From the NCBI GenBank assembly GCA_003576755.1, contig QEVT01000009.1:1-38639 (forward strand): 38,639 nt of DNA. The letters are read 5' to 3'. The notes beneath the pieces were generated by a model. The model saw nothing but the letters and a program-made list of their open reading frames with translations. It was not told the origin of the DNA and did no database searches. Below are positions 14,941 through 22,157 of the stretch, in pieces (the stretch's first letter is position 1; every line of letters starts with the position of its first letter). The position numbers and the translations under genes are program-made. This DNA is from a bacterium (lineage in GTDB: Bacteria; Chloroflexota; Anaerolineae; Epilineales; Epilineaceae).

Positions 14941-15447
14941 ATGACGATCCAAGTCCGCCGTGGAGAGCCCGGCGATCATGAGGCCATCCAGCGAATCGTG
15001 GCCGGGCCGCGCGCCGTCTGGGGCACGCTGCAATTGCCGTACCCTTCGATCGAGCAGTGGCGCAAGCGGCTCGCCGAGCCGGCCGAAGGCGTGATCCATC
15101 TTGTCGCGCACGTCGATGCCGAGGTCATCGGACATCTCGGGTTGCATACCTTCCCCCACGCCCCGCGCCGCCGCCACGTCGGGCAGATCGGCATGGCCGT
15201 GCGCGACGACTGGCACGGCAAGGGCGTTGGCACGGCGCTCATGCAGGCCGCGCTCGACTTGGCGGATCGCTGGCTCAACCTCCATCGGCTCGAGCTCGAC
15301 GTCTACACCGACAACACGCCGGCGATCCGGCTCTACGAGAAGTTCGGGTTCGGCATCGAGGGAACGTTCGTCGACTTCGCGTTCCGCGACGGGCGGTTCG
15401 TCGACACCTACGCGATGGCCCGGATCAGGATCCCAGCGCCCGGCTGA
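14941..15447 (+). CDS. GNAT-family N-acetyltransferase
   Basis: 168 residues from the ATG at 14941; a GTG at 14875 would add 22 unlike residues. Strand-helix motif A is at ~88-108 (GMAVRDDWHGKGVGTALM, with the acetyl-CoA pyrophosphate loop GKGVGT). LDVYTDNTPAIRLYEKFGF is the common GNAT motif B. The closest pattern is the YncA or ribosomal-protein-acetylase-like group, but the acceptor cannot be named. It follows argH by 55 bp on the same strand and precedes the arg operon promoter by 21 bp, so it is likely co-transcribed with argH. A role in arginine metabolism is not shown. Confidence 0.88.
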   Translation: MTIQVRRGEPGDHEAIQRIVAGPRAVWGTLQLPYPSIEQWRKRLAEPAEGVIHLVAHVDAEVIGHLGLHTFPHAPRRRHVGQIGMAVRDDWHGKGVGTALMQAALDLADRWLNLHRLELDVYTDNTPAIRLYEKFGFGIEGTFVDFAFRDGRFVDTYAMARIRIPAPG

Positions 15448-15468
15448 CCGGCGACGATCGACCAGATC

Positions 15469-15497
15469 TTGCCACACCCGCCCCGCCGCCCTAGAAT
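15469..15497 (+). promoter_or_regulatory. Sigma-70-type promoter of the arg leader and argCBDAGJ operon
   Basis: TTGCCA (15469-15474, 5 of 6 matches to TTGACA) and TAGAAT (15492-15497, 5 of 6 to TATAAT) are separated by exactly 17 bp. This is the best two-part promoter in the window. The expected start is 15504-15506, on or next to the leader peptide ATG at 15506. Confidence 0.8.
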
Positions 15498-15505
15498 ACC
15501 GCGCC

Positions 15506-15583
15506 ATGGCTTCGTCCGCGCGAGCGACCCGCGTCCGTCCGACGCGTCAGACCACCGGTCTGGCGCAACCCGGCCCCGCTTGA
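15506..15583 (+). CDS. Arginine-rich leader peptide of the arg operon
   Basis: A 25-codon frame starts 8 bp after the -10 box and ends at TGA 15581-15583. It begins MASSARATRVRPTRQTTG, with Arg at positions 6, 9, 11 and 14 using codons CGA, CGC, CGT and CGT. The last Arg codon (15545-15547) falls inside segment 1 of the downstream RNA hairpin, where attenuator control codons sit in trp and his leaders. No Shine-Dalgarno is present, and with the predicted start site the message would be leaderless. I infer that slow decoding of these Arg codons when arginyl-tRNA is scarce stalls the ribosome over segment 1. Raw Arg content alone would not prove this in such GC-rich DNA. The position of the codons, the promoter and the terminator together do support it. 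Confidence 0.72.
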   Translation: MASSARATRVRPTRQTTGLAQPGPA

Positions 15584-15641
15584 CCGCTCCCGCGGCCAAT
15601 GGACCGCCACCTGCGTCGCCAGACCGCTGATCGGTCTGGCG
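15544..15641 (+). promoter_or_regulatory. Four-segment arginine attenuator (anti-antiterminator / antiterminator / terminator)
   Basis: Segment 1 (15544-15553) pairs with segment 2 (15557-15566) in a 10-bp hairpin with loop ACC. Segment 3 (15617-15626) pairs with segment 4 (15632-15641) in the terminator. Segments 2 and 4 contain the identical decamer CGGTCTGGCG (15556-15565 and 15632-15641), so segment 2 can instead pair perfectly with segment 3 over 10 bp and prevent terminator formation. A ribosome halted at Arg codons 11-14 would mask segment 1 and favour 2:3 (read-through). A ribosome reaching the stop at 15581 would leave 3:4 free to form. I see no T-box consensus. The mechanism is inferred; the pairings are read directly. 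Confidence 0.75.
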
Positions 15642-15650
15642 ATTTTGCTT
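15616..15650 (+). terminator. Intrinsic terminator in the arg leader
   Basis: CGCCAGACCG (15617-15626) and CGGTCTGGCG (15632-15641) form a perfect 10-bp stem around CTGAT, extended by a T-A pair. It is followed at once by TTTTGCTT (15643-15650). It is the only hairpin with a clear T-tract I found in the window and lies 113 bp before argC, so it acts within the leader. The remaining 15651-15762 is a leader without further recognised elements. Confidence 0.82.
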
Positions 15651-15762
15651 TGTCGGGCAAAGGTCGCCCGCGCCATGCCATGCCGAGCCGCGTCGCCGAA
15701 GGCGCCGGCCGTCTCAGCCCGGTGCCGCCAGCCGTCGCCGGGCCCGAACACGGGAGTCTTGC

Positions 15763-16779
15763 TTGACCATCCGAGCCGGCGTGTTTGGCGCCACCGGGTA
15801 CACCGGGCTGGAGCTCATCGCGCTCCTTGCCGCACATCCCGACGTCGCGCTCCGGTTCGCGGCGTCGGAGTCGCGCGCCGGCCGCTCGCTGCGCGACGTC
15901 CATGCCGGCGCCCCCGACGTGCCGCTGATCCGACCACACGACGCGCCGGTCGGCGACATCGACGTCGCGTTCCTGTGCCTGCCGCACGCCGCCTCGGCCA
16001 CCACCGCGGCCTGGCTCCTCGACCGCGGCCCGCGCGTGATCGACCTGAGCGCCGACTTCCGACTGCGCGATCCCGCTGCCTATCGGCAGTGGTACGGCGC
16101 CGACCACCCCGCACCCGGCCTGCTCGGCACCGCCGTCTACGGCCTCACCGAGGTCGCACGGCCGCTCCTGCCCGGTGCGCGCCTCGTCGCCAACCCCGGC
16201 TGCTACGCCACCAGCATCCTCCTTCCGCTCCACCCGCTCGCCGGCGTCGGCGCGACGCGCGGCACCGTCATCGCCGACAGCAAGTCCGGCGTGTCCGGCG
16301 CCGGGCGCGTGCCCAAGCTGCACACCCACTTCGTCGAGGTCGCCGAGAACTTCGCACCGTACAGCATCGGCCGGACCCATCGCCACATCGCCGAGATCGA
16401 TCAGGCGCTCGCGGCGTGGAGCGCGGCACCGCCGCTCGTGGTGTTCTCGCCGCACCTTCTGCCGGTCACGCGCGGCATCCTGACGACGCTGTACGTGCCG
16501 CTCGCGCCCGACTGGGACCATGCCCGGGTGCACGCTCGCCTCGCGCAGGCGTTTGCCGGCGAGCCGTTCGTGCGCGTGCTGCCCGCGGGCGAGGCCGCCA
16601 CGCTGGCGCACGTCCTGCGGACCAACCGCTGCGTCGTCGGCGTGCACCCCGCCGGCCGGGACGGCCTGGCGATCGTCACGAGCGCGCTCGACAACCTCGT
16701 GAAGGGCGCGGCCGGGCAGGCGCTGCAGAACATGAACGCGATGTTCGGGCTGCCCGAGACCCGCGGGCTCACCGCGTGA
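15763..16779 (+). CDS. argC: N-acetyl-gamma-glutamyl-phosphate reductase
   Basis: 338 residues from a TTG start at 15763, supported by GGGAG at 15752-15756 and by the N-terminus TIRAGVFGATGYTG, the NADP-binding Rossmann loop. ArgC reduces N-acetylglutamyl phosphate to the semialdehyde. The catalytic Cys147 is in ANPGCYAT, and the later SGVSGAGR and HLLPVTRGI segments match the family. Length is typical. It is the first structural gene after the attenuator and ends with a GTGA overlap into argB. LysY of the LysW pathway is a homologue, but the ArgB/D/A/G/J neighbours argue for arginine. Confidence 0.96.
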   Translation: MTIRAGVFGATGYTGLELIALLAAHPDVALRFAASESRAGRSLRDVHAGAPDVPLIRPHDAPVGDIDVAFLCLPHAASATTAAWLLDRGPRVIDLSADFRLRDPAAYRQWYGADHPAPGLLGTAVYGLTEVARPLLPGARLVANPGCYATSILLPLHPLAGVGATRGTVIADSKSGVSGAGRVPKLHTHFVEVAENFAPYSIGRTHRHIAEIDQALAAWSAAPPLVVFSPHLLPVTRGILTTLYVPLAPDWDHARVHARLAQAFAGEPFVRVLPAGEAATLAHVLRTNRCVVGVHPAGRDGLAIVTSALDNLVKGAAGQALQNMNAMFGLPETRGLTA

Positions 16780-17584
16780 GCCCGCGCGTGCCGGCGCCTG
16801 CCACCCCCGCCCGCGTCGTCAAGCTGGGCGGGCGGTTGCTCGACGATCCCGCGGCGTTGGCCGGCCTTGCCGCCGCCATCGCGGGGCTGCCCGGGCGCGT
16901 CGTCGTCGTCCATGGCGGCGGCGACGCCATCGGCGAGCTGCAGGGCCGCCTGGGCTTGGCCGTCGAGAAGCGCGACGGCCTGCGCGTCACGACGGCCGGC
17001 GCGCTCGACGTCGTCACCATGGTGCTGGCCGGGCGCATCAACACGCGCGTCGTCGCGGCCCTGCACGCCGCCAAGGTCGATGCGCTCGGGCTGTCCGGCG
17101 TCGATCGCGGGCTCCTCGATTGCCGTCGCGTGATCCACCCTGCCGGTGACCTCGGCTTCGTCGGCGAGGTGGCGGCGGTGCGGGTCTCCGTCTTGGCCGC
17201 ATGCATGGCCGAGCACGTGGTGCCGGTGGTCGCGCCGCTCGGCGTCGACGCGGGCGGCCAGGTGTACAACGTCAACGCCGACGATGCGGCGGCGGCGATC
17301 GCCAGGGCCCTCGGCGTCGAGCTGGACCTGGTGTCCGACGTCGGCGGCGTCGTCGTCGACGGTGCCGTCGTGACGCGGCTGGCCGCCCCCGAGGCCGAAC
17401 GCCTCATCGCGGCCGGCGTGATTCACGGCGGCATGGTGCCGAAGGTGCGGGCCGCCCTCGGCGCGATCGCCAGCGGCGTGCCCCGCGCCCGGATCGTCGA
17501 TCCGCAAGGGTTGGTGGCGGGCGCCGGGACGGTCTTTGCCGGGGGCCCCGCGTCGCCCGATCCCGATGCGATGGAGATCAGCAC

Positions 17585-17588
<4 letters not shown>
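16776..17588 (+). CDS. argB: Acetylglutamate kinase
   Basis: 270 residues from a GTG overlapping the argC stop (GTGA). ArgB phosphorylates N-acetylglutamate. Visible family features are the N-terminal VVKLGGRLL strand, the VVVVHGGGDAI glycine loop, the VNADDAAAAIA segment and the C-terminal GVIHGGMVPKVRAA motif. It lacks a long N-terminal helix of the kind linked to arginine feedback in hexameric enzymes, although the first ~10 residues are unstructured-looking. A GTG at 16788 is an alternative start. It ends with an ATGA overlap into argD. A lysine-pathway kinase is less likely because no lysW is nearby. Confidence 0.95.
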
Positions 17589-18864
<1,276 letters not shown>

Positions 18865-18868
<4 letters not shown>

Positions 18869-19494
18869 CCGACGGCCTGCCCCGGCTTCGCCCGGCCGCG
18901 GCCGGCGACGTCCCGCGCCTGGCCGCGATGGTGGCCGCCCACGCCCGCAGCGGCGACGTGCTGCCACGGTCGGCCGAGAGCATCCGCGCCGGCCTGGACG
19001 ACTGGTGGGTGGTCGAGGCCGGCGGCGAGGTGATCGCGTGCGGTTCGCTGTGGGTGTACGGGCCGCACCTCGCCGAGGTCCGATCGCTGATCGTCGACGC
19101 GCCCGCGCGCGGCCAGGGGTGGGGCCGCGCCATCGTCGAGGCCCTCGTGGATGCCGCGCGCCGGCGCGGCATCCGCCGGGTGTTCACGCTCACCCGCGCC
19201 GCCGGGCTGTTCGAGCGCACCGGCTTCCACCCGACCGACAAGGCGGTCTTCCCGGAGAAGATCTGGAAGGACTGCCAGCAATGCCCGTTGCACGACGCGT
19301 GCGACGAGATCGCGCTGACCCGCGACGTGCTGACCGATGCCGACGCCGCCGCAACCGACGCCGTGGCGGACGAGGCGATCGAAGCACACGCGGTGCCGCT
19401 GGAGGGGCGTCCGATCGCCGGCCTCGCCCTGTCGCCATCGCCCGTCGCACGGGCGGCCCGAGGAGGATCGATTGCGCGCCCACACCGTCGCTGA
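18865..19494 (+). CDS. argA: N-acetylglutamate synthase, short GNAT type
   Basis: 209 residues. It is a GNAT fold: the [16 protein letters not shown] start, the [19 protein letters not shown] acetyl-CoA loop, and [15 protein letters not shown]. It ends in the distinctive [20 protein letters not shown] tail, with cysteines at ~137, 140 and 146. That tail is shared by the short bacterial N-acetylglutamate synthases, which lack an amino-acid kinase domain. Placement inside argCBDAGJ supports the role: acetyl-CoA-dependent acetylation of glutamate to prime the pathway. About 50 Ala-rich residues follow the domain, and the 3' end overlaps argG. Biochemical specificity is inferred from motif and context. 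Confidence 0.85.
19461..19467 (+). promoter_or_regulatory. Consensus Shine-Dalgarno deciding the argG start
   Basis: AGGAGGA ends 4 bp before the TTG at 19472 and far (34 bp) from the GTG at 19502. It lies inside the argA coding region and is among the few full-consensus ribosome binding sites in the window, so it favours the TTG start. Confidence 0.65.
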
Positions 19495-20749
19495 TGCCAC
19501 CGTGAACAAGGTCGTGCTCGCCTATTCGGGCGGGCTGGACACCTCGGTCATCGTGCCGTGGTTGCGCGAGACCTACGGCTGCACGGTGATCTGCTACTGC
19601 GCCGACCTGGGGCAGGGCGAGGAGCTCGCCGGGCTGCGCGACAAGGCGCTCGCCAGCGGCGCCGCCGACTGCGTCATCGAAGACCTGCGCGAGACCTTCG
19701 CGCGCGACTACCTCTTCCCGATGCTCCAGTCCGGCGCCGTCTACGAGCACCAGTACCTGCTCGGCACGTCGATCGCCCGCCCGCTCATCGCCGCGCGACA
19801 GGTCGCGCTCGCCGAGGCGGTGGGGGCGGATGCGGTGGCGCACGGCTGCACCGGCAAGGGCAACGACCAGGTCCGCTTCGAGCTGACGTTCAAGGCCCTG
19901 AACCCCCGGCTGCGGGTCATCGCGCCGTGGCGCGAGTGGCACATCCGGTCGCGCGAGGACGCGCTGGCGTATGCGGACGCCCACGGCGTGCCGATCGCCC
20001 AGCGCGAACGCAGCATCTACAGCCGCGACCGCAACCTCTGGCACCTCTCGCACGAGGGCGGCGGGCTCGAAGACCCCGCCCGCCCGCCCGACCCGGCGAT
20101 GTTCCTGTGGACCGCAGACCCGGCCGAGGCGCCGGGCACGCCCGAGATCGTCGAGATCGCGTTCGATGCCGGCACGCCGGTTTCCGTCAACGACGTCCGC
20201 CTGTCGCCGGCGATGCTCATCGACACGCTCAACGCCATCGGGGCCCGGCACGGGGTCGGGCGGATCGACCTGGTCGAGAACCGGCTGGTCGGCATGAAGT
20301 CGCGGGGGGTCTACGAGACCCCGGGGGGAACGCTGCTCTATGCCGCCCACCGCGAGCTCGAGTCGCTGTGCCTCGACCGCGACACGGCGCACGCCAAGGC
20401 CGGCCTGGCGCTGCGGTATGCCGAGCTCGTGTACTTCGGTCAGTGGTTCCATCCGCTGCGCGCCGCGCTCCAGGCGTTTGTCGACCAGACCCAGGCCACC
20501 GTGACGGGCTGGGTGCGGCTCAAGCTGCACAAGGGGCTCGTGACGGTCGATGGTCGGGACAGCCCCAACAGCCTGTACCGCGAGGACTTCGCCACCTTCG
20601 GCGCCGACGACGTCTACGACCAGCGCGACGCCGCCGGGTTCATCAACCTGTTCGGCCTGCCGATGAAGGTGCAGGCGATGCTCGGCGTGTCGGACGGCGG
20701 ACTGGTGCGCTACGCCGCGCCCGACTACAGCCGGTTCAAGCGCGACTGA
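19472..20749 (+). CDS. argG: Argininosuccinate synthase
   Basis: 425 residues from TTG 19472, chosen because AGGAGGA ends 4 bp upstream. The in-frame GTG at 19502 would give 415 residues and the more usual [11 protein letters not shown] start. ArgG condenses citrulline and aspartate with ATP. The PP-loop AYSGGLDTS begins at residue 17. Other signatures are [28 protein letters not shown] and the substrate loop [14 protein letters not shown]. It overlaps argA by 23 bp. Its substrate citrulline needs ornithine carbamoyltransferase, which is not encoded in this window. Confidence 0.96.
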
Positions 20750-20813
20750 GCACCGTCGGGACCGGTTGCGACGGCCGCTGCCGGCGATGCACGACCACCG
20801 CGGGAGCGTTTCC

Positions 20814-22157
20814 ATGGATCTCGACACGTCGAACCCCAAGGGCGAGCCCCCGGCCGTCTGGCTCGCAGACGGCGGCGTGACCAGCGCCGCCGGCTACCGG
20901 GCCGCCGCGGTCGCCGCCGGGCTCAAGGCGTCGGGAGGGCCGGACCTGGCGATCCTCGTCAGCGACCACGCCGCTGCCGCGGCCGGCGTGTTCACCCGCA
21001 ATCGCGTGGCGGCGGCCCCGGTCCTGGTCGACCGCGCGGTGCTCGCCGGCGGTGCCGGCCGTGTGCGCGCGGTCGTCGTCAACGCGGGCATCGCCAACGC
21101 GTGCACCGGGCCCGGAGGGCTGGAGGACGCGCAGGCGATGCAGCGGTTGACGGCGGCCGCGATCCCGGGGAACGCCGCGCCCGAACAGGTGCTCGTGCTC
21201 TCGACCGGCGTCATCGGGCACCGCCTCCCGATGGACCGCGTGGCGCAGGGCATCGCCGTGGCCGCGGGCGCGCTGGCCGCCGACGGCGGCGCGGCCATGG
21301 CGCGCGCCATCATGACCACCGACACCCGTCCCAAGCAGTGCGCGCTTCGCGTGCGGCTGGCCGGCGGCGACGTCGTCGTGGGCGGGGTGGCCAAGGGCTC
21401 GGGGATGATCCACCCCGACATGGCCACGATGCTCGCCGTGGTCACCACCGACGCCCGGTTGCCGGTGGCAGACCTCGATGCCACCCTCCGAACGGCCGTG
21501 GCGGGCACCTTCAACCGGATCACGGTCGACGGCGACACGAGCACCAACGACACCGTGTTGGCCCTGGCCAACGGCGCCGCCGGCGTCGCGGTCGAGACCC
21601 CCGCCGACCGCGACGCGTTCCAGGGCGCCCTCGAGGCCGTGTGCCTCGCCCTCGCGCACGCCATCGTCCGCGACGGCGAGGGTGCGACGCGCTTCGTCAC
21701 GGTGCACGTCCGCGGCGCGACGGACGATGCCGGTGCGGCGGCGGTGGCACGAACCATCGCCACCTCGCCGCTCGTCAAGACCGCCCTGGCAGGCGGCGAC
21801 CCCAACTGGGGCCGGATCCTGGCGGCCGCCGGCCGTGCCGGCGTGCCGGTGGACCCCGATCGGATGACGCTGTCGGCCGCGGCGGGCGGCGGGCTCGCGG
21901 CCTCCGACGCGGGTGCCGCGCCCACCTTGGCCAAGCCGGCGGAGGCCGATGCGGCGACGGGCTCCGGTCGACCGCCGGTGGTGCTGGTGCGTTCCGGTGC
22001 GCCCGCCGGTTATGTCGAGCAAGAGGCGGCAGCGGTCTTCGCCGCTCCGGAGATCACGCTGGACCTCGATCTCGGCCTCGGCGGCGGGGCCGCGACGTAC
22101 TGGACGACCGACCTGACGGCGGCGTACGTCGCGATCAACGCGGACTACACGACGTGA
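20814..22157 (+). CDS. argJ: Glutamate N-acetyltransferase / ornithine acetyltransferase
   Basis: 447 residues from ATG 20814 with GGGAG 7 bp upstream. ArgJ moves the acetyl group from N-acetylornithine to glutamate, recycling it. The precursor cleaves itself before T205 in KGSGMIHPDMATML, and that Thr is the nucleophile. VNAGIANACTG, STGVIG and the C-terminal YVAINADYTT also mark the family. The protein is about 40 residues longer than usual because of an Ala/Gly-rich insertion at roughly 352-395, near the C-terminus. It is the last gene of the arg operon and is followed by two GC hairpins. Confidence 0.95.
   Translation: MDLDTSNPKGEPPAVWLADGGVTSAAGYRAAAVAAGLKASGGPDLAILVSDHAAAAAGVFTRNRVAAAPVLVDRAVLAGGAGRVRAVVVNAGIANACTGPGGLEDAQAMQRLTAAAIPGNAAPEQVLVLSTGVIGHRLPMDRVAQGIAVAAGALAADGGAAMARAIMTTDTRPKQCALRVRLAGGDVVVGGVAKGSGMIHPDMATMLAVVTTDARLPVADLDATLRTAVAGTFNRITVDGDTSTNDTVLALANGAAGVAVETPADRDAFQGALEAVCLALAHAIVRDGEGATRFVTVHVRGATDDAGAAAVARTIATSPLVKTALAGGDPNWGRILAAAGRAGVPVDPDRMTLSAAAGGGLAASDAGAAPTLAKPAEADAATGSGRPPVVLVRSGAPAGYVEQEAAAVFAAPEITLDLDLGLGGGAATYWTTDLTAAYVAINADYTT

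Follow-up and report, generated by a model that had tools for sequence, protein, structure and literature searches.

A probable ribosome-mediated attenuator precedes the arginine operon in Chloroflexota without a detectable ArgR

Introduction

What controls the arginine operon of a Chloroflexota bacterium in which a small open reading frame (ORF) with arginine codons and an intrinsic terminator lie ahead of argC? Knowledge of arginine biosynthesis in bacteria comes chiefly from the ArgR repressor, together with some T-boxes. Ribosome-mediated attenuators have been described for the trp, his, leu, thr, ilv and phe operons of Proteobacteria and for his operons in some Firmicutes (PMC9413887). 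The locus studied here lies in a window of 38,639 nucleotides (the whole stretch of DNA that was analysed) from a member of the Epilineaceae, class Anaerolineae. An initial annotation of this window had proposed that the logic of trp and his attenuation is applied there to arginine, with a leaderless leader peptide. Our analysis indicates that the element is very probably a ribosome-mediated transcription attenuator of the arginine operon argC-argB-argD-GNAT-argG-argJ. The basis for this reading is the anatomy of the element, its conservation, codon geometry and covariation, the absence of ArgR and the match between leader codons and the downstream gene; the start site, ribosome stalling, termination and arginine response of the window attenuator are predictions made from these data.

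Anatomy of the argC leader

The leader lies downstream of argH and a GNAT gene, which end at 15447, and upstream of the operon listed in Table 1. The operon had been named argCBDAGJ and the gene calls agree, ArgA being an ArgA-like GNAT protein. TTGCCA-17-TAGAAT is the sole promoter-like match in 15000-16200, where 0.1 is expected from shuffles, and the leader ATG at 15506 stands 8 nt past the -10 hexamer. The ORF that follows carries Arg at codons 6, 9, 11 and 14. These codons are scattered across 27 nt and are not in tandem, which counts against the attenuator.

Two hairpins are predicted, 1:2 (15544-15566; 10 pairs, -16.5 kcal/mol, z -5.0) and 3:4 (15616-15642; 11 pairs, -20.9 kcal/mol, z -5.6), the latter followed by the T tract TTTTGCTT, which is interrupted and in this respect also counts against the reading. 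The resulting intrinsic terminator sits between the leader ORF and argC. The decamer CGGTCTGGCG occurs twice, at 15556-15565 in segment 2 and at 15632-15641 in segment 4. Pairing of segments 2 and 3 gives -33.5 kcal/mol for the fold of 15557-15626, with a duplex energy of -23.2 compared to a shuffle mean of -15.4 (p 0.01). The 1:2, 2:3 and 3:4 pairings are mutually exclusive, and the predicted fold of the entire leader is more stable than those of 200 shuffled versions (z -5.1). When re-read base for base, the promoter, ATG spacing, 25-codon ORF, Arg positions, hairpins and repeated decamer were all found where the initial annotation had placed them; the corrections are that segment 3 begins at 15616 and that the stop codon lies 15 nt past segment 2, not between segments 1 and 2. 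We also considered whether the GGTCTGG hairpin might serve as a terminator throughout this genome and rejected the idea: CCAGACC-N3..12-GGTCTGG occurs at one other place in 4.4 Mb, the same as for a reversed-pattern control.

Table 1 Features of the attenuator and the operon in the window
Feature	Coordinates	Strand	Remarks
Promoter	15469..15497	+	-35 TTGCCA 15469-15474, 17 nt, -10 TAGAAT 15492-15497
Leader ORF MASSARATRVRPTRQTTGLAQPGPA*, 25 codons	15506..15583	+	Predicted leaderless or nearly so; counterparts in relatives
Sensor Arg codons CGA 15521, CGC 15530, CGT 15536, CGT 15545	15521..15547	+	Arg is the most enriched residue in counterparts
Segment 1 GCGTCAGACC	15544..15553	+	1:2 hairpin -16.5 kcal/mol; 86% of cells paired in 19 sequences
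Segment 2 GGTCTGGCGC	15557..15566	+	Begins about 10 nt past last Arg codon; pairs with 1 or 3
Segment 3 TCGCCAGACCG	15616..15626	+	Partner of segment 2 (antiterminator) or segment 4 (terminator)
Segment 4 CGGTCTGGCGA and T-rich tract TTTTGCTT	15632..15650	+	Predicted intrinsic terminator; 3:4 covaries in relatives
argC, first structural gene of the operon	15763..16779	+	TIGR01850, 363 bits
argB (start approximate)	16812..17588	+	TIGR00761, 193 bits
argD (start approximate)	17699..18868	+	TIGR00707, 442 bits
GNAT N-acetyltransferase, ArgA-like (start approximate)	18880..19494	+	PRK07757, 143 bits, under its cut-off of 154
argG (start approximate)	19499..20749	+	PRK00509, 601 bits
argJ	20766..22157	+	PRK05388, 454 bits

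The leader is conserved before argC

ArgC was searched for in 298 genomes of the class, and 134 argC upstream regions were read; these relatives share descent, and the counts below are therefore not independent trials. In 117 of the 134 regions, argC is preceded by a terminator at a distance of no more than 270 nt. An ATG-initiated leader ORF, picked by position only and blind to its content, was present in 110 of these 117 compared to 43 in dinucleotide shuffles. Arg makes up 18.7% of leader residues (11.5% in shuffles) and has the highest z of all residues, 6.7 and 9.4 in two runs; 76 leaders contain at least 4 Arg codons, compared to 15.5 in shuffles, and the same test revealed no excess of Lys, Trp or His in the argC leaders. 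By a looser count the element occurs in 112 of the 134 regions and 29 of the 32 families, and the argC locus of Anaerolinea sp. CH6 (L227) has it. Outside the class, the element was also found in families f80 and f106. Counting against the reading, two genomes near the window's own, one of the same family (G001; L003) and one of the same order (G006; L007), have no element directly before argC, which stands in another gene context in both.

Promoter hexamers resembling TTGACA/TATAAT were found for 101 of the 110 leaders. In 51 of these 101 the start codon follows the -10 by no more than 12 nt; in the other 50 the spacing is 13 nt or more (13-40 nt in all but one), the 5´ ends being predicted throughout. 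A leaderless or near-leaderless start is thus likely in the window, given the 8 nt spacing, and appears common in relatives (about half) without being universal. Because the other relatives have 13-40 nt at this point, and some have a Shine-Dalgarno (SD)-like motif, a leaderless start is not an essential part of the element. In a 2011 survey, leaderless genes were detected in only a few Chloroflexi genomes, at 4-6% (PMC3160421).

Two variants of the leader were observed. The argC leader of G072 (L020/L307) has an in-frame TAG at codon 7, ahead of its Arg codons, with the remainder intact, reflecting either natural loss or a sequence error. Leaders in families f27 and f40 (L033, L034, L040, L042) contain clustered AGG Arg codons, such as CCTAGGAGCCCTAGGAGG, and perhaps sense one minor Arg-tRNA.

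Covariation and codon geometry

Covariation was measured on 19 alignable argC leader sequences. The 3:4 pairing covaries: 92% of cells are paired and 21 are double-changed, a number reached by none of 500 shuffles. Covariation of 1:2 is weaker. The 2:3 core is invariant across the 19 sequences and shows no covariation there. Since this invariance makes covariation inside the aligned group uninformative for 2:3, clades were compared instead. Between clades the two strands of 2:3 are swapped as a unit, with the pairs GGTCTGG/CCAGACC, GTGTGTC/GACACA, GGGTCCGG/CCGGGCTC and GAGGTTCG/CGAACCTC. Antiterminator pairing of 2 with 3 reached p<=0.05 in 54 of 117 regions, compared to 4 of 113 when a stretch lying further upstream was taken as control.

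The Arg codons are also positioned with respect to the RNA. In 67 leaders they are concentrated between 9 and 29 nt ahead of segment 2, and the median distance from the last of them to that segment is 12 nt; the corresponding positions in the window are 15547 for the end of the last Arg codon and 15557 for the start of segment 2. The size of the ribosome footprint enters this stalling geometry: segment 1 would lie under a ribosome whose A site holds the last Arg codon, and the leading edge of that ribosome would not quite reach segment 2.

ArgR is not detected in the class

The ArgR C-terminal domain PF02863 was found in none of 296 genomes of the class, the window's own genome (82% complete) included; 188 of these genomes are at least 90% complete. 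The same search recovered the domain in 8 of 14 control genomes and in 66 of 301 genomes of a phylum sample, all 66 lying outside the class. The f80 and f106 members that carry the attenuator outside the class are not among the genomes with ArgR. The check on the attenuator proposed at the outset was to look for conservation and covariation ahead of argC in related genomes, and the outcome is strongly positive: the leader ORFs, Arg excess and covariation in relatives, together with the absence of ArgR from the class, support attenuation logic applied to arginine. Apparently, the Arg-coded switch stands in for the arginine repressor protein in a large group of little-studied Chloroflexota.

Proposed mechanism and alternative explanations

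In the mechanism that we propose, RNA polymerase would start at or just before the leader ATG, where a ribosome would load and translate the leader. With ample Arg-tRNA, the ribosome would pass segments 1 and 2, after which 1:2 can re-form; either the ribosome or the 1:2 hairpin would keep segment 2 from segment 3, 3:4 would form and transcription would stop. With Arg-tRNA scarce, the ribosome would stall at the Arg codons and cover segment 1, leaving segment 2 free for segment 3. The 2:3 pairing would then prevent the terminator from forming and argC-argB-argD-GNAT-argG-argJ would be transcribed. If the leader were not translated at all, 1:2 would form and the operon would stay off. That the sensor codons follow the downstream gene, as described below, is most simply explained if charged cognate tRNA is sensed at the ribosome.

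Arg-rich leaders sited before arginine genes might also encode arrest peptides, in which case the ribosome would be stalled at high arginine by a nascent peptide that has bound arginine (or ornithine) inside the exit tunnel. The fungal arginine attenuator peptide and SpeFL are arrest peptides of this kind, with the opposite logic. However, if the ribosome stalled at the Arg codons, the antiterminator would be released, such that high arginine would turn synthesis on. Moreover, no conserved peptide beyond the Arg clusters was seen across the argC leaders compared; residues outside the sensor vary, segment 2 is read in different frames between clades, the scaffold takes Ala codons before alaS, where the peptide otherwise resembles that of the arg leaders, and Lys codons are used before lysW. 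We therefore regard an arrest peptide as very unlikely. More doubtful still is another RNA switch (a T-box or riboswitch), or an antiterminator protein acting on a conserved GGUCUGG motif, with the ORF incidental. Sequence conservation of the GGTCTGG/CCAGACC core is indeed strong among the aligned leaders, but a base used in 1:2, 2:3 and 3:4 alike is expected to change slowly, and other clades have quite different cores. Rfam gave no match in the window, and 20 further loci, most with the element, yielded only a tRNA; the T-box model RF00230 matched in neither. Yet Rfam does find T-boxes before trpE in relatives, with RF00230 above its gathering score in 8 of the 14 regions submitted (L428, L432, L435, L439, L441, L443, L446, L452). 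These trpE regions also served as a specificity control, and the 30 surveyed showed no leader excess (4 ORFs compared to 5.7 in shuffles).

The least probable of the alternatives, to which we give almost no weight, is that a plain terminator closes the upstream argH-GNAT unit and argC has a separate promoter, the ORF being there by chance. The terminator does follow argH and the GNAT gene. Nevertheless, the sole promoter found is upstream of the terminator, the ORF and its Arg content exceed shuffles, and the order promoter, ORF with Arg codons, terminator recurs in most of the 134 argC upstream regions, even where the sequence further upstream differs.

Relation to known leader peptides

The Chloroflexota element resembles trp/his-type attenuators in having a leader ORF with codons for the product, the 1:2, 2:3 and 3:4 pairings and an intrinsic terminator before the first structural gene. 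It differs from them in its arginine signal, in often having no SD, in a stop codon placed no earlier than segment 2 and in the absence of ArgR. Leaderless LeuL, TrpL1 and IlvL are described in Streptomyces lividans, where AlaL precedes alaS (PMC8079986), and mycobacterial poly-Cys leaderless ORFs (Canestrari 2020) are cited as acting on the translation of genes downstream (PMC9031893). These actinobacterial leaders share with ours sensor codons and, in Streptomyces, the alaS target, and their start codon at the transcript 5´ end has a likely counterpart in the window leader, but they belong to another phylum and include no arginine or lysine example. A 2005 survey of Actinobacteria gives no RNA element for arginine, which it places under T-boxes (PMC1262725). 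The closest arginine-codon leader, the speF orf34/SpeFL leader of Salmonella and E. coli, works by a different mechanism, controlling ornithine decarboxylase via Rho, RNase G and masking of a ribosome site (PMC6386406). There, too, the Arg codons of a leader ORF influence the downstream gene, but the peptide is conserved and there is no intrinsic terminator. ArgR and arginine T-boxes share the target genes and signal of the Chloroflexota element; by contrast, ArgR is a protein repressor and a T-box binds tRNA directly, and our element has no T-box match in a class without ArgR.

In the part of the literature covered, open papers only, we found neither an arginine biosynthesis operon nor lysW described as being under a leader-peptide attenuator. 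The initial annotation had seen an added novelty in the leaderless start; such a start, plausible for the window leader and for about half of those in relatives, is already known from leader peptides of Actinobacteria. What is described here is widespread in one class, and leader-peptide attenuators as such, leaderless ones included, were known before. A class-wide leader-peptide attenuator without ArgR, outside the phyla of the textbook examples, would mean that ribosome-mediated attenuation can carry the arginine pathway too.

Leaders of the same kind before other genes

A covariance model built from the argC leaders only was run on the class genomes and gave matches in 57 of 296, with argC sites strongest and second copies next. 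In seven f39 genomes such second copies lie before alaS (L327-L333), and six of the seven have clear runs of Ala codons; in one example the Ala leader is MKQSCVISAAAAAQTSGLVTSAA* and the arg leader of the same genome MRNFVNNAPLFIRRRSQAIGLDFEVA*. Sequence similarity between the arg and ala versions is clear. No alaS attenuator was seen in the window's own genome. Other copies are Arg leaders, one before argD in G135, whose argC has none, and one before argG-argH in G025.

A weak model match before lysW with a Lys-rich ORF (L341) was kept and led to a survey of lysW. Of 48 lysW upstream regions, a terminator was present in 30 and a leader ORF in 29, compared to 11 in shuffles; no residue is more enriched in these leaders than Lys (z 4.0). 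Homology of this lys version to the arg and ala versions is less certain and is suggested by the similar layout and a shared SG-stop tail. An exception is family f13, whose genomes have no close ArgC and whose lysW leaders contain Arg codons (L393, L394, L402; NSRRARAKRSQ); this hints at arginine as a product of the LysW pathway in these genomes.

We consider it reasonably likely that a single transferable attenuator scaffold has been recoded by evolution, with Arg codons before argC, argD and argG-argH, Ala codons before alaS (in the same genomes and with a similar peptide tail) and possibly Lys codons before lysW, and that it took over arginine control in a class without ArgR. Pairs of Arg- and Ala-coded leaders in the same genome are natural codon-swap experiments on one RNA scaffold, by which a change in attenuator specificity is directly testable, and the leader codons offer a sequence-level readout of the operon's product.

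Other weak model matches (L340, L342, L343, L345, L346; E about 5e-4 to 3e-3) had no convincing leader and were taken as ordinary terminators. Upstream of lysW (L377-L426), Lys-codon leaders with terminators were seen in many families, for example MFFKSFDSKRKQSKKPTEGSG*. The same type of leader with a terminator was also observed before a LysE-type exporter gene, named by eye (L338; G004:C301); its ORF is MTTLATINQRNPQPAFGSG*, with an ambiguous sensor codon.
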